DNA of 64,000 bases from Egicoccus halophilus (GTDB taxonomy: Bacteria; Actinomycetota; Nitriliruptoria; Nitriliruptorales; Nitriliruptoraceae). Made by a program: the position numbers and the translations under genes. Of this stretch, positions 57,931 to 64,000 are shown piece after piece (the first letter of the stretch is position 1; every line of letters begins with the position of its first letter). The notes under the pieces were generated by a model. It had not been told where the DNA came from. It saw nothing but the letters and a program-made list of their open reading frames with translations, and did not search any database. The stretch is taken from the NCBI RefSeq assembly GCF_004300825.1, contig NZ_CP036250.1, positions 682,001 through 746,000 of the forward strand, written 5' to 3'.

Positions 57931-58278
57931 CCGGCCTCTGGTCGTGTCGCGGTCGGTCCGTCGACGCACGGGGCCGGTCCCGGCCGGACGGGATCCGGGC
58001 CGGCGGCGCACGCGCACGCGGTCGACGCGAGCGCCGCGCTGCGGGCCACCCCCCGTGGCCGGCGAGGGTACCGCCCGCCGCCGGGCGTTCCGGTGCAGCG
58101 AGGCCCGCCCGTCGTGGCCCGGGGCGCCGGGTGACGGATCGTCGTGTGCGGGGCGCGTCGAGCAGCGAGACACCTCGGAGACACCCGGCGTCGAGACTCT
58201 CGCGTGGGGGTCCAGCGCCGGTCACCGCCCGACCGGACGGGCCCCGGTTCGTGCGCCCGACCCCCGAGGTACCTGCTC

Positions 58279-59502
58279 TTGTCGCTCCCGTCGTCGCTCC
58301 CGCGCGTCCGCCTCGGCTCGTGGCTGGTCGGCCGTGCCAGCCCGTGGCTGGTGGTGGTCGGCGTCGGAACGCTGCTGGGCCTGGCCTGGCTCGCCACGTA
58401 CCTGGCGGGTGGGGCACCCAGCACCCTCCCGCACGCCTACTACGTCGCGATCCTGGTCGCCGCTGCCGCTCTGGGACCCGTGGGCGGCGCGGCGACGGGG
58501 GTCCTCGCCGGTCTGCTCGGAGGCCCGCTCACCCCGGCTGACGTCGCCACCGGCGCCCCGCAGCCCGCGATCGACTGGCTGGTCCGCGGCTTCTTCTTCG
58601 TGCTCTCCGGTGCGCTCGTGGGCGGCCTGGTCGCCAACCTGCGCCGTTCCTACGAGGCGGCCGTCGCCGACCGGTTCGACCGCGAGGTGCAGTTGAGCGT
58701 CGCGTCGCCCGAACCGCCCTCGGCGATCGCGCCACTGCACGAGTGGCAGGTGCGCGCCCTGCTCGAGCAGCGCGACTTCTCGATCGTGTTCCAGCCGCTG
58801 TACGCGCTCGACGACGGCCGGCTGGTGGCGGTGGAGGCGCTGACCCGTTTCCACACCGACCCGCCGGAACGTCCCGACGTCTGGTTCCAGCGGGCGACGT
58901 GTGCCGGACTCGGTCGTGACCTCGAACTCGCCGCGATCGACCAGGCACTGACGGCGGTCGCGGCCGACGGGTTGCCGCCGGACGTGGGGGTGAACCTCAA
59001 CTGCTCGCCGCAGGCGCTGGCGGATCCGCGGCTGCCCGGCCTGCTCGGTCGTACGCGGCGTCCGGTCGTGTTCGAGATCACCGAACACGCAATGGTCGAG
59101 GACTACCCGGCGTTGGAGGCGGCGATGCAACGTCTGCGCGAGCACGGGGCCCGCTTCGCGGTCGACGACGCCGGTGCGGGCTTCGCGAGCCTTCGTCACA
59201 TCGTCCGACTCGCGCCCGAGTTCATCAAGCTCGACATGTCCCTGACCCAGAACCTGCGCGCCGACCCGGTGCGCAGCACCTTGGCCGCCTGCCTGCTGCG
59301 CTTCACCAACGAGACCGGTCGACGCCTCGTCGCCGAGGGCATCGAGCACGCCGCCGACCTCGCGCACTGGCGTCACCTGGGTGCCCATGCGGCGCAGGGG
59401 CACCACCTCGGGCGTCCGGGCCCGCTGCCGGTGCCACAACACTGCCCGGCGATCGCCGTCGAGGCCGACCGCGGGGGCGGTGGCGATCCCACGCTCCGTT
59501 AG
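58279..59502 (+). CDS. Membrane-anchored EAL-domain c-di-GMP phosphodiesterase
   Basis: A ~407-residue protein. Residues ~20-125 have about three to four hydrophobic segments with Gly-rich turns. The EAL domain (~150-390) keeps the catalytic set: VEALTRF (E), NLNCSP (N), FEITEH (E), VDDAGAGFASL (DD), FIKLDMSL (K), VAEGIEHA (E) and AQGHHLGRP (Q). It should cleave c-di-GMP to pGpG. The start is uncertain; TTG 58279 is chosen for GAGGT at 58266-58270. It is the natural counterpart of the GGDEF protein at 13340. Confidence 0.88.
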   Translation: MSLPSSLPRVRLGSWLVGRASPWLVVVGVGTLLGLAWLATYLAGGAPSTLPHAYYVAILVAAAALGPVGGAATGVLAGLLGGPLTPADVATGAPQPAIDWLVRGFFFVLSGALVGGLVANLRRSYEAAVADRFDREVQLSVASPEPPSAIAPLHEWQVRALLEQRDFSIVFQPLYALDDGRLVAVEALTRFHTDPPERPDVWFQRATCAGLGRDLELAAIDQALTAVAADGLPPDVGVNLNCSPQALADPRLPGLLGRTRRPVVFEITEHAMVEDYPALEAAMQRLREHGARFAVDDAGAGFASLRHIVRLAPEFIKLDMSLTQNLRADPVRSTLAACLLRFTNETGRRLVAEGIEHAADLAHWRHLGAHAAQGHHLGRPGPLPVPQHCPAIAVEADRGGGGDPTLR

Positions 59503-59531: not shown

Positions 59532-62500
59532 GTGGCCGTGCTCGAGGTGCTGCTGCTGGGAGGCTTCCAGTTGCGGCTCGACGGCGAGTCGTTGGCGCCA
59601 CTGCCGTCCCGGGCGGCCCGGTCGTTGTTCGCGCACCTGCTGATCCACCGTGGCTCGCCCCAGCCGCGCGAGCGACTCGCGGCCGCGTTCTGGCCGGACC
59701 TGCCCGGCGCCCGGGGCCGGCGGCGGCTGAGCCACACGTTGTGGCAGATCCAGGACGCGTTCGCCGAGGTCCCCGGTGGGTGGGACCACCTGCGGGCCAC
59801 CAGCGACACGATCGCGGTCGACGGTGACGCGCCGTGCCGCATCGACGTCGAGGACTTCGAGGGGGAGCTCGACCGTGCCCGCGAGCTGCGCGACACCCTG
59901 GGCGCGGTCGACGGCATCGCCGTGCTGCAACGTGCCGTCGAGCGCTACCGCGGCGACTTCCTCGCCGGACACTACGACGAGTGGGTCCTGGTCGAACAGC
60001 AGCGCCTCGCCCAGCGCCACCTCGACGCGCTGGGTGACCTCGTGGCGCTCACCCGGTCCGTGGGGGCCTACGACGAAGCGCTCGTCTACGCCCGGCGACT
60101 CACCCACCAGGACCCCCTGCGCGAGGACGCACACCGCGAGGTCATGCGGCTGTGCACCCTGCTCGGTCGCACCAGCGACGCCCTGCGCCAGTACGAACGC
60201 TGTCGCGAGGTGCTCGCGGAGGAACTGGGCACCGAACCGGCTGCGGCCACCCGGCAGCTGCACCAGCGCATCCTGCACGAACGGCGACGGGTCGAGGGAG
60301 CGCCCCCGGGCCCGCCGGCCTCGTCCTTCCCGCAGCGGCTGCCGCTGGCCGGTCGGAACGCGGAGCGCGCCGACGGGGTCGCGGTCCTCGAGGACGCCCA
60401 GGCCGGGCGCGGCGGACTCGTCCTGATCGAGGCGTCGGCCGGCCACGGCAAGTCACGCCTGCTCACCGAACTGCTCGACGACGCCCGCTGGCGCGGGGCC
60501 AAGACGCTGCTGGCCAGTGGCCGCGGGCCGCAGGGCTCGGGCCCGTACGCGGTGGTCCGCCAACTGCTGGAGCCGGCGCTGACCCCGCTGCGGGTGGAGC
60601 AGTTGCGTCACCGGCTCGACCCGGTGTGGCTGGGGCTGGTCGCCGAGCTGTTGCCGCCGGTGGCGCGCGCCCTGCCCCCGGCACTGCGGCCGATCGCGGC
60701 GGTGCGGCCCGAGGAGGCCGCGGGCCGGTTGCGCTCGGCCCTGGTGCGGACCCTGGTCGCGATGGCGTCGCTCGATCCGCTCGTGGTGGCCGTCGACGAC
60801 CTGCAGTGGGCCGACGACGCGTCCCTGGAGCTGCTGGCCGAACTGTCGGCCGAGGTCGGTGACGCCAGCATCGCGCTCCTGCTCGCCTACCGCGGTGACG
60901 AGGCCCGCCGTCGGGGACCGGTGTGGCGGACCGTGCGTGACCTCGACCGGCGACTGCGGCCGGTGCGGTTGCTGCTGCAACCGCTCGCACCCGCCGATGT
61001 GACGGCGGTCGTACGTGCGGCCGGGCTCGGGCGCGGCGCCGAGGCCGCGTTGGCGCAGCGTCTGCACCGCGAGACCGGTGGCAACCCGTTGTTCGTGGTG
61101 GAGACCCTGCGTTCCATCGCCGAGACCGTGGACGACCTCGACGTGGATGCCGGCACGCTCCCGTTGCCCGCCACCATCCGCGACCTGGTCCGCACCCGGC
61201 TGGCATCGTTGTCCAGCGACGAGCGTGCACTGGTGGAGGTCGCGGCCGTCGCGGGTGACGGCACCGGGCTCGACGTCCTGGCCGAGGCGACCGAACTTCC
61301 CCGGCGGACGGTGGTCGACGCCGCCTCGACGCTGGTCCGTCGTGCGCTGCTGCGTGAGGCCGCCGACGGGGTGTCGCTGTCGCACGAGCAGTTGCGTCGG
61401 GTGACGCTCGATGTGCTGACCGAGGCCGCCCGACGGGCGCTGCACCGGCGGGTGGGCACGGCGCGCGAGCGGCTCGAGCCGGAGGCCGTCGACCGGCTCG
61501 CGCACCACTTCGCCGAGGCCGGCGACGTCCGCAAGGCCGTCCACTACCTGCTGGCCGCCGGGCGGGCAGCGGCGGCGGTCCACGCGTACGCCGCCGCTGC
61601 CGACTACCTGCACCGGGCGGTCGTGCAGCAGCGACAGCGTCCGGCCAGTGTCGCCGCCCGGTTCGACCTGCTCGCCGAGCTGGCCGACGTCCTCGACGTG
61701 CTCGGTGACCGGGCCGCCCAGCAGTCGGTGGTGGAGGAACTGGTCGCGCTCGCGCAGGGCTCGCCCGCCCGCGAGGTCGAGGCGCTGCGCCGGCGGGCCC
61801 TGGTGCGGGCCCAGGCCGGCGAGCACGCGGCGGCCCGTCGGGACGCGCACCGGGCGGTCGACACCGCCGACACGGTCGGCGACGACCGTCGCGCGGCGCA
61901 GGCCTGCTTCGCCCTGGCCCGCGTGCTGGCCTGGGGCGGCGAGCGACGCGCCTCGCTGCCGCTGCTGGTCCGCGCGGTCCGCACCGCCGGGATCGACCCC
62001 TCCCTGGCGCTCGAGATCCGGACCACGCTGGCGTCGGTGCTGCGCGAGCTCGGCCGCTACCGCGCCGCCGCGGTGGAGCTCGACGCGATCCTCGATCGCG
62101 CGGCCCAGGCCGGCGAGCTGCGGGCCGAGGCCCATGCCCTGGGGGTCCTGGGCACGGTGCGCATGGAGACCGGCGACCATGCGGACGCCAGCACGCTGTA
62201 CACCCGGGCCATCGACGGATTCTCCGCTCTCGGACTGCCGCAGGGGATGGCGATCGCGCAGGTCAACCTGGCCAACGTCCGCTACGTCCAGGGACGGATC
62301 GGTGAGGCGCTGGACGCCTACGAGGCCGCGGCCACGACGTTCGCGACCATCGACGACCGACGGGGGGAGGCCACCGTCCGGCTCAACCTCGGTGTCGTGG
62401 CCGCCGACGTGCTCGGCGACGACGCCCGCGCGTCCCGTGCCCTCGTGGCCGCGCTCGACCATTTCGCCGAGGCCGGCGACCGGGCGTTCGAGGCGGCGTG

Positions 62501-63341
62501 CCGGGAGACGCTCGCCCGTCTCGCCCTGCGGGCCGGTGACCTGTCCGAGGCACGACGGCAGATCGGGGCGGCGCTCGCCCTGGACGTGGCGGACGAGGAT
62601 CTCCGCGGGCAGGTGCAGATCCTGTTGCGCGCCGGCGAGGTCGAGCTCGCCGCGGGGGACACGGCCGCCGCCGCCGCCGCGGTCGCGCGGGCGGAGCTGC
62701 TCGTGGGGCGCGCCGAGCTCGCCGACCGCCGCGTCGAGGTCCGCGCCCTCGAGGGGCGCATCCTGCTCGCCCGGGGCCGACCGCACGCCGCGCTGGAGGC
62801 GACCCGCGCGGCGGTCGACGGCCTCACCGGGTCGGTCGAACGCCCGGAGCTGGTGCGACTGGCCCACGCCGAGGTCCTCGCCGCCCTCGGGCACGAGGCC
62901 GAGGCGGCGACGGTCGCCACCCGGGCGGCCGACGAACTCGGCAGGTTGCTCGTCGACCTGCCGCCCGAGTTGCGTGCGCAGGCCGAGGCGGTGCCCGAGC
63001 ACCGTCGGATCCTGACCGCCGCGGCGCGGTCGCCGGCGTCACGCGTGCGGCTGGTCGTCGCGGCGCGCGGTGCACCGCGCGGACGTCCCCTGCGACCGGC
63101 CGAGCGCCTCGAGGTCGAGGTGTCACTGACGACCGACGTCCCGCTCCCCGACGATCCGGTGGAAGCCAGGCGGGCGCGACTCGCCCTGGTCGTCGCGGAC
63201 ATCGAGGACCAGGGGGGTGCCCCGACCACCCTCGACCTGGCGGCGCTGCTCGGGGTCAGCGAGGCCACCGTGCGTCGGGACCTGCAGGCGCTGCGCGCGG
63301 CCGGGCGGCCCTTGACGACCCGGGGCAGCCGCACGGGATGA
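59532..63341 (+). CDS. SARP-type regulator with ATPase, TPR and C-terminal HTH
   Basis: A 1269-residue regulator. Residues 1-95 are an OmpR-like winged helix (LLGGFQLRLDGE; PRERLAAAFWPDL) and 105-250 a BTAD domain (HYDEWVLVEQQRL; DPLREDAHREVMRL). An AAA/STAND ATPase follows, with P-loop GHGKS at 304-308 and Walker B LVVAVDDLQWADD. About 640-1110 is TPR-like (LGRYRAAAVELDAIL; RIGEALDAYEAAA). The end (1220-1269) is a DeoR-like HTH (TTLDLAALLGVSEATVRRDL). DNA-binding domains at both ends are unusual. GGGAGAGGG precedes the GTG. Large SARPs control secondary metabolism; this target is unknown. Confidence 0.88.
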   Translation: MAVLEVLLLGGFQLRLDGESLAPLPSRAARSLFAHLLIHRGSPQPRERLAAAFWPDLPGARGRRRLSHTLWQIQDAFAEVPGGWDHLRATSDTIAVDGDAPCRIDVEDFEGELDRARELRDTLGAVDGIAVLQRAVERYRGDFLAGHYDEWVLVEQQRLAQRHLDALGDLVALTRSVGAYDEALVYARRLTHQDPLREDAHREVMRLCTLLGRTSDALRQYERCREVLAEELGTEPAAATRQLHQRILHERRRVEGAPPGPPASSFPQRLPLAGRNAERADGVAVLEDAQAGRGGLVLIEASAGHGKSRLLTELLDDARWRGAKTLLASGRGPQGSGPYAVVRQLLEPALTPLRVEQLRHRLDPVWLGLVAELLPPVARALPPALRPIAAVRPEEAAGRLRSALVRTLVAMASLDPLVVAVDDLQWADDASLELLAELSAEVGDASIALLLAYRGDEARRRGPVWRTVRDLDRRLRPVRLLLQPLAPADVTAVVRAAGLGRGAEAALAQRLHRETGGNPLFVVETLRSIAETVDDLDVDAGTLPLPATIRDLVRTRLASLSSDERALVEVAAVAGDGTGLDVLAEATELPRRTVVDAASTLVRRALLREAADGVSLSHEQLRRVTLDVLTEAARRALHRRVGTARERLEPEAVDRLAHHFAEAGDVRKAVHYLLAAGRAAAAVHAYAAAADYLHRAVVQQRQRPASVAARFDLLAELADVLDVLGDRAAQQSVVEELVALAQGSPAREVEALRRRALVRAQAGEHAAARRDAHRAVDTADTVGDDRRAAQACFALARVLAWGGERRASLPLLVRAVRTAGIDPSLALEIRTTLASVLRELGRYRAAAVELDAILDRAAQAGELRAEAHALGVLGTVRMETGDHADASTLYTRAIDGFSALGLPQGMAIAQVNLANVRYVQGRIGEALDAYEAAATTFATIDDRRGEATVRLNLGVVAADVLGDDARASRALVAALDHFAEAGDRAFEAACRETLARLALRAGDLSEARRQIGAALALDVADEDLRGQVQILLRAGEVELAAGDTAAAAAAVARAELLVGRAELADRRVEVRALEGRILLARGRPHAALEATRAAVDGLTGSVERPELVRLAHAEVLAALGHEAEAATVATRAADELGRLLVDLPPELRAQAEAVPEHRRILTAAARSPASRVRLVVAARGAPRGRPLRPAERLEVEVSLTTDVPLPDDPVEARRARLALVVADIEDQGGAPTTLDLAALLGVSEATVRRDLQALRAAGRPLTTRGSRTG

Positions 63342-63447
63342 CGCCTGGCCGACCCCGGACGGGGTCGGGATCTGAGGTAGTTCCGAGACACCGCACCGGC
63401 ACGCTCGTGCCGTCGTCTCCCTCCCCGATCCCGCGAGGAACCCGCTC

Positions 63448-63552
63448 ATGTCGCGTCTCAAGGCCCGCCTGACCACCGTCGCACTGCTCGCCACCACGGC
63501 CGTGCTGTCCGCTTCACCGGCGTTCGCCGGCATCAAGAACATGGGCCTGTAG
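63448..63552 (+). CDS. Small secreted peptide precursor (34 residues)
   Basis: ATG at 63448 with GAGGAA at 63435-63440, seven bases upstream; TAG at 63550-63552. Residues 1-27 (MSRLKARLTTVALLATTAVL plus SASPAFA) are a signal peptide with an AFA cleavage site. The product after cleavage would be GIKNMGL. It starts 106 bases after the giant regulator gene. A CGGCACG-CT-CGTGCCG hairpin (63397-63412) lies between. Strong initiation signals plus an intact export signal argue for a real gene; a peptide pheromone is inference. No homologue is known to me. Confidence 0.65.
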   Translation: MSRLKARLTTVALLATTAVLSASPAFAGIKNMGL

Positions 63553-63572
63553 TCCGGCCTCGCAACGGGGGG

Positions 63573-63605
63573 CGGCGCCCGGCGGTGTCGGCCGGTCGGG
63601 CGCCG
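63573..63605 (+). terminator. Terminator-like hairpin after the small peptide gene
   Basis: CGGCGCCCG (63573-63581) pairs perfectly with CGGGCGCCG (63597-63605) around a 15-base loop. It starts 21 bases after the peptide stop. ACTTGAG follows; no T-run. Probably ends the short peptide transcript. Confidence 0.55.
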
Positions 63606-63610
63606 ACTTG

Positions 63611-63736: not shown

Positions 63737-64000
63737 ATGGCAGTGTTCGGGGCGATGGCGGTGTCCGGCGTCGGACGTGGGGTCCCGCGTCGGTTGCTGG
63801 TGATGGCGACCGCGCTCGCGCTCACGGTGCCGTCCGTCCCGGCTGCCGCTGCCACGGTCGCCGCCGACGAGACCGCGGCCGAGACGAGCGCGGCCGGCAC
63901 GAGGGCGTCGGGCGCGTCCGTCGACGGGGCCGTCGACGACGGCGCGACGTACTTCGTCGAGGGGGAGCGCGCGGCCGTCGAACGCGCCGTGGGCGCGGTC
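63737..64000 (+). CDS. Secreted protein, N-terminal fragment
   Basis: An open frame of 88 codons running off the window. ATG 63737 has AGGGGA six bases upstream. A signal peptide is evident (VPRRLLVMATALALTVPSVP then AAAA), followed by an Ala/Thr/Asp-rich stretch and TYFVEGERAAVERAVGAV. The last piece could be the beginning of an inhibitor-type propeptide such as those of subtilases, but too little is present to assign a family. Confidence 0.7.
   Translation, partial: MAVFGAMAVSGVGRGVPRRLLVMATALALTVPSVPAAAATVAADETAAETSAAGTRASGASVDGAVDDGATYFVEGERAAVERAVGAV

Follow-up and report, generated by a model that had tools for sequence, protein, structure and literature searches.

A candidate autoinducing peptide circuit with a large SARP regulator as receptor in Egicoccus halophilus and related Actinomycetota

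In a 64-kb stretch of the Egicoccus halophilus genome (the window; the genome is a single contig of 3.98 Mb), we analyzed a gene of 34 codons that lies directly downstream of the gene for a large SARP regulator. Comparison with related genomes showed that this pair is conserved, that the small gene (the microgene) bears the mark of purifying selection, and that it follows a predicted two-part operator used almost exclusively at this locus, while modeling predicted a TPR fold like that of pheromone receptors. We therefore favor, with a probability of roughly 60%, an autoinducing peptide circuit in which the SARP is the receptor. The pair consists of the following features.

59532..63341, + strand: SARP regulator of 1269 amino acids (Pfam, model, structure comparison)
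63448..63552, + strand: peptide precursor gene of 34 codons (open reading frame, orthologs, selection, specificity rule)
63448-63528, + strand: signal peptide of the precursor
63529-63549, + strand: tail GIKNMGL, with the stop codon at 63550-63552

The initial annotation of this DNA had described a 34-codon gene with a good ribosome-binding site, 106 bp past a 1269-residue regulator on the same strand, and a complete signal peptide ending in AFA before GIKNMGL. Both descriptions were confirmed by the open reading frames: the frame at 63448-63552 (+) translates as MSRLKARLTTVALLATTAVLSASPAFA followed by GIKNMGL, the GAGGAA 5' of its ATG is a plausible ribosome-binding site, and the gap from the regulator stop (open reading frame 59532-63341, also +) is 106 bp.

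Relatives were searched for the regulator in 41 genomes and then in 66 genomes of the class Nitriliruptoria. Full-length or split orthologs were found among the 41 relatives, and 15 of the 66 class genomes contained a match. Conservation of the small gene beside orthologous regulators, which had been proposed as a check, was evident in the order of E. halophilus, where a signal-peptide microgene lay directly downstream of the regulator in all 13 genomes with readable downstream sequence (E. halophilus included). The tails in this order are GIKNMGL, GIKNLGL, GVRNLGL, GIRNLGS, GIVNVGW, GSFSLGF, GVANLGF, GIRNIGF, GLSNMGF, GVVNAGV, GTLNMG, VVNMG, and GTAYMT. To search beyond the class, we built a profile from the last 569 residues of the regulator; among 396 sampled genomes of the phylum, it detected five full-length orthologs outside Nitriliruptoria. 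Within Acidimicrobiia, 29 of 296 genomes matched the regulator, and a clear microgene stood behind 24 of the 26 orthologs with downstream sequence, the other two being G651 and G498 (see below). Tails in this class include ILRPGH, IWRPGHN, TWRPGHG, GIRNM, SISDMS, SGSLMS, SIGNMT, AVVNIR, SVVNIH, AGGQMT, NGDWGV, and TGDFHR. The precursors are 28 to 34 amino acids long, 5 to 7 residues remain after the AxA site in nearly all of them, and the tail sequences are lineage specific. In one genome (G481), the regulator is present twice, and each copy is paired with a different peptide (AVVNIR and NGDWGV). An Acidimicrobiia-type regulator with the tail MRPGH also occurs on a contig assigned to Thermoanaerobaculaceae (L150), which is probably mis-binned.

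We wrote the properties of the microgene as a rule: 26 to 42 codons, K or R near the start, a hydrophobic core, an AxA-type site that leaves 4 to 8 residues, and a ribosome-binding site. The rule accepts 37 of the 38 orthologous microgenes, a count that is not independent of the rule, which was devised once the orthologs were known; the controls are independent. Behind control SARP/TPR paralogs, it accepted none of 34 stretches, although some of these control reading frames may be antisense readings. When the 64 kb is scanned in both orientations, the rule accepts 1 of 282 windows, which is the microgene at 63448-63552 itself. The pooled pairwise ratio of nonsynonymous to synonymous substitution rates (dN/dS) of the microgene is 0.05 to 0.56 in all six groups; by this measure, it is under purifying selection.

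The promoter of the peptide gene in the window has the following elements.

63374..63390, + strand: SARP operator of the peptide gene, GAGGTA-GTTCC-GAGACA, an 11-bp direct repeat
63400..63405, + strand: predicted -10 hexamer CACGCT, 9 nt past the second repeat
63339..63350, + strand: second operator element, degenerate TGACGCCTGGCC (consensus TGAGCGCAAGGT), 35 bp upstream of the repeats
63397..63412, no strand: palindrome CGGCACGCTCGTGCCG, overlapping the predicted -10 hexamer

Of the 38 microgene promoters, 32 contain a pair of GAGACA-like hexamers with a period of 11 bp (p<=0.01 versus shuffles). With offsets counted from where the second hexamer ends, an A occurs at offset 11 in 26 of these 32 and a T at offset 15 in all 32, giving an xAxxxT -10. 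The microgene promoters thus match the geometry of AfsR-type SARP promoters, in which 11-bp direct repeats are arranged with the downstream repeat ~8 bp from the -10 (PMC10936776). The initial annotation had offered the palindrome as the operator. The palindrome itself is real, but it is missing in relatives and overlaps the predicted -10, and we rejected it in favor of the conserved direct repeat. Six Acidimicrobiia microgene promoters lack the GAGACA repeats (L126, L127, L146, L135, L136, and L138); several of them share a T-rich TAGTTTTT-like motif, which suggests operator switching in those lineages.

Among the 38 aligned promoters, the best match to TGAGCGCAAGGT is located 34 to 35 bp ahead of the repeats in 19 and closer by one helical turn, at 25 to 26 bp, in five others; best scores average 9.2 of 12, versus 6.6 (maximum, 7.0) in shuffles. 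The element often begins with the stop codon of the regulator, as TGACGCCTGGCC does. It also occurs away from that codon, ~170 bp beyond the stop in G022 and before an unlinked EAL gene in G018, and because it is present where the stop codon is not, we take it to be a DNA element and not a coding constraint. Its probable reader is the DeoR-like helix-turn-helix (HTH) domain at the C terminus of the regulator.

Upstream of the regulator, the window contains a second site of the same kind.

58279..59502, + strand: membrane EAL-domain gene (cyclic di-GMP phosphodiesterase type), likely start TTG at 58279
58167..58183, + strand: second SARP operator, GAGACA-CCTCG-GAGACA, before the EAL-regulator operon
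58193-58198, + strand: -10-like GAGACT of the EAL-regulator operon, with a TGA element at 58132

The EAL gene is probably in an operon with the regulator, and it has homologs in G002, in G003, and, unlinked, in G018. Across 13 genomes of the order, 15 sites match the pattern GAGAYA-N5-GAGAYA and none matches its reversed control. Most of the 15 are microgene promoters; in E. halophilus and G003, one site each stands before the EAL gene at the head of the regulator operon. Single sites precede the unlinked EAL homolog (G018) and a tyrosinase-like gene upstream of the regulator (G025), and one more (G003:C8) shows none of these associations. In the E. halophilus genome, a looser pattern plus the -10 finds two sites, one ahead of the peptide gene and one ahead of the EAL-regulator operon. 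Among Acidimicrobiia, use of the operator is essentially limited to the microgene; we considered extra regulon sites there, but four of the five extra pattern matches lie inside long open reading frames, consistent with chance. From the distribution of these sites, the regulator appears to be dedicated to the peptide gene and, in its own family, to its own operon and the EAL protein. The unlinked EAL gene of G018 keeps a complete two-part operator (L085; G018:C138:12524-12555), and control of the EAL gene is therefore conserved even without synteny. An additional operator-like repeat precedes a 35-codon hydrophobic open reading frame, MANPQRWGWVTVVGALVLITVMVIAALALSGAAGR, in another genome (L161; G625:C79:51686), which is possibly a second small target or chance.

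The regulator itself has four recognizable parts.

Residues 104-248: BTAD (PF03704, E 3.4e-27), preceded in the N-terminal 100 residues by a winged helix that is of SARP type by eye only
Residues 272-444: AAA_16 (Pfam)
Residues about 701-1150: TPR superhelix (Pfam TPR_12 and model)
Residues about 1209-1269: C-terminal DeoR-like winged HTH (Pfam), absent from the earlier annotation

A model of residues 701-1269 (pLDDT, 91.9; pTM, 0.77) contains the TPR superhelix, a small beta element, and the winged HTH. When it was compared to the PDB with VIA-align, the top row was the phage phi3T Rap protein with RGHTS (Z, 28.7; root mean square deviation, 4.7; 344 residues aligned). Complexes of phi3T Rap with pheromone peptides scored Z 28.2 to 28.7, apo NprR 27.8, Rap-CSF 27.7, NprR-NprX 26.9, and MalT domain III 24.0. 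By sequence, the TPR region of AfsR also matches that of the regulator (E 4e-10). The TPR superhelix is a common repeat fold; the predicted fold supports the geometry of a peptide groove and says nothing of the ligand.

Just 3' of the peptide gene, the window has one more candidate element.

63571..63606, + strand: G+C-rich hairpin, possible terminator (computed fold)

If this hairpin is a terminator, the microgene would be monocistronic. The next gene (63737-64000, running past the end of the window) encodes a secreted S8 (subtilase) protease of 689 amino acids with Ig-like domains. An Rfam scan near the microgene-regulator pair gave no match at gathering scores and none that was convincing at E<=1. 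In one Acidimicrobiia family, a conserved, strongly structured stretch of ~190 nt lies 3' of the microgene; it includes GACGTACGCCCAGGGG followed by a perfect GATCCCCGG hairpin (L092:3398-3600 [+], L093:3376-3570 [+], L094:1120-1309 [-], L120:1106-1295 [-], L121:3391-3580 [+], and L116:3290-3490 [+]). Of the 42 pairs predicted for these six sequences, 11 show changes on both sides, but with a weak covariation term and with no Rfam match.

In the circuit that we favor, the microgene product would be exported by Sec as a precursor, and signal peptidase I would cut it after AFA to leave a linear peptide of 5 to 7 residues, here GIKNMGL. An oligopeptide permease (Opp) would most likely re-import the peptide into the cytosol, where it would sit in the groove of the TPR superhelix and, we infer, activate the SARP-ATPase-TPR-HTH protein. 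The active regulator would then occupy the repeats at the peptide gene and at its own EAL-regulator operon and recruit RNA polymerase, and the outcome would be positive feedback and altered cyclic di-GMP turnover. Each of the seven genomes that we checked encodes binding proteins of peptide importers (PF00496), and E. halophilus has four. In G498, the signal peptide has been lost in frame, so that a ribosome-binding site is followed by ATG, LRPGHGPS, and a stop codon (MLRPGHGPS), where relatives have the tail ILRPGH; the operator, the -10, and the regulator are all intact beside this signal-less gene. This single genome points to the tail as the important part of the product and suggests that it is able to act intracellularly.

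Several observations weigh against this circuit. The AxA cleavage sites were predicted by eye and by the rule, and the microgene of G651 has an atypical tail without AxA. The repeats are absent from 6 of the 38 promoters (G481a, G612a, L146, G448, G534, and G451). A metagenome-assembled genome of Thermoflexales (Chloroflexota) has an ortholog of the regulator, TGAGCGCAAGGT, the repeats, and the -10, then a terminator-like hairpin (L153:6760-6795), and despite this operator and -10, no microgene was found there. In the structure comparison, LGN complexes tie with Rap (Z, 28.6), Foldseek alone places LGN first, and by sequence the TPR region is closest to LGN/Pins-type TPRs. Finally, comparison of tail divergence with that of the TPR domain, a check suggested at the outset, gave a mixed result. 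Coupling exists, with r of 0.72 between tail and regulator distances and 0.47 to 0.56 between signal-peptide and regulator distances, but it is not specific to the TPR domain: in a partial Mantel test, tail divergence tracks the TPR and the ATPase region equally (partial r, 0.22 each).

The same layout is known from AfsR-afsS of Streptomyces, where a large SARP with ATPase (NOD) and TPR regions is followed directly by a small gene and 11-bp repeats lie near the -10, and where AfsR is modulated by ATP and phosphorylation (PMC10936776). Here, too, the small downstream gene is under a SARP box, and the microgene could by analogy encode an effector, exported or held in the membrane, that acts elsewhere, while the regulator senses ATP, phosphorylation, or a metabolite. 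We consider this unlikely. AfsS is described as a sigma-factor-like protein and not as a signal-peptide precursor, whereas the microgene products are precursors of 28 to 34 amino acids with no AfsS match in a Pfam scan. The E. halophilus regulator also differs from AfsR by one more HTH, at the C terminus, and its operator by one more element. After cleavage, only a lineage-specific tail of 5 to 7 residues would be left of such an effector, and G498 keeps that tail without the signal peptide.

Somewhat more doubtful is that the peptide is an extracellular signal for a membrane protein, such as an adjacent histidine kinase, and that the SARP controls only its production. A histidine kinase is encoded 3' of the microgene in several Nitriliruptoraceae (G006, G007, G009, G018, and G062); at this position, G019 has a kinase fragment, G020 a receiver-kinase, and G002 an EAL protein. 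However, the kinase is absent in E. halophilus, G001, G003, and G025, which have other genes at this position; a hairpin lies 3' of the microgene in E. halophilus, G003, and several Acidimicrobiia; and the sole constant partner of the microgene is the regulator. We regard as improbable to a similar or slightly greater degree that the pair monitors secretion, with the cytosolic TPR region binding uncleaved precursor when Sec is saturated and the exported peptide being a decoy that reports export capacity. A signal peptide is nearly always present, and the tail would presumably face the cytosol before export, but a regulator of this kind would be locked on in G498, and the operator was not found at secretion genes, being almost confined to the microgene-regulator locus. 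Translation of the microgene as a leader peptide, with control of the following gene by attenuation or arrest, would fit a short reading frame with a conserved C terminus and the very stable 3' structure of one Acidimicrobiia family, but downstream genes vary among genomes and the tail changes by lineage, which makes this very improbable.

The autoinducing circuit also invites comparison with RRNPP receptors (Rap-Phr, NprR-NprX, PlcR-PapR, Rgg-SHP, and AimR), to which the initial annotation had likened the pair. Shared with these are an adjacent gene for a short pro-peptide, its export being predicted here; a linear mature peptide, predicted to have 5 to 7 residues; and a regulator-type operator before the peptide gene. 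The sensor, too, is modeled as a TPR superhelix, a fold that places it as near to LGN as to Rap and NprR. The promoter logic and the predicted receptor fold fit peptide signaling through a TPR regulator, but by architecture the protein is not a member of the RRNPP family: it has a SARP DNA-binding domain, an ATPase, and a C-terminal winged HTH, and it comes from Actinomycetota, not Firmicutes. The RRNPP detector defines a receptor as 250 to 500 amino acids with peptide-binding TPRs, a range well exceeded by the 1269 amino acids found here, and the associated survey covered Firmicutes and viruses only (PMC10075063).

Signals in Actinomycetota are typically small molecules made by enzymes (PMC10075063), and a 2016 review contains no report of quorum sensing for Acidimicrobiia or Nitriliruptoria (PMC4748050). 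In the open-access literature, we found no description of a SARP with a peptide pheromone, or of RRNPP in Actinobacteria, that matches this system. A partial parallel is the nosiheptide SARP NosP, which Li et al. in 2018 (cited in PMC10972967 and PMC6930871) reportedly found to be responsive to ligands that originate in a precursor peptide; those ligands arise in a thiopeptide antibiotic pathway and are not the product of a dedicated signal-peptide microgene. SARPs, TPRs, short exported peptides, and autoinduction are all known kinds, and it is their combination that looks previously undescribed.

On slightly better than even odds, the pair would represent a novel class of receptor for peptide pheromones inside the cell, in which a SARP-ATPase-TPR protein recognizes a two-part operator through two DNA-binding domains, and the first such peptide quorum-sensing circuit of Actinomycetota, common to Nitriliruptoria and Acidimicrobiia and with lineage-specific peptide codes. 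The pair is readily testable, since the hexapeptides can be synthesized, the operator is suited to a clean reporter assay, and the differing peptides of paralogous pairs provide inherent specificity controls. For most large SARPs, no TPR ligand is known; if the circuit is real, it would provide a candidate ligand for these proteins and would extend peptide communication to Nitriliruptoria and Acidimicrobiia.
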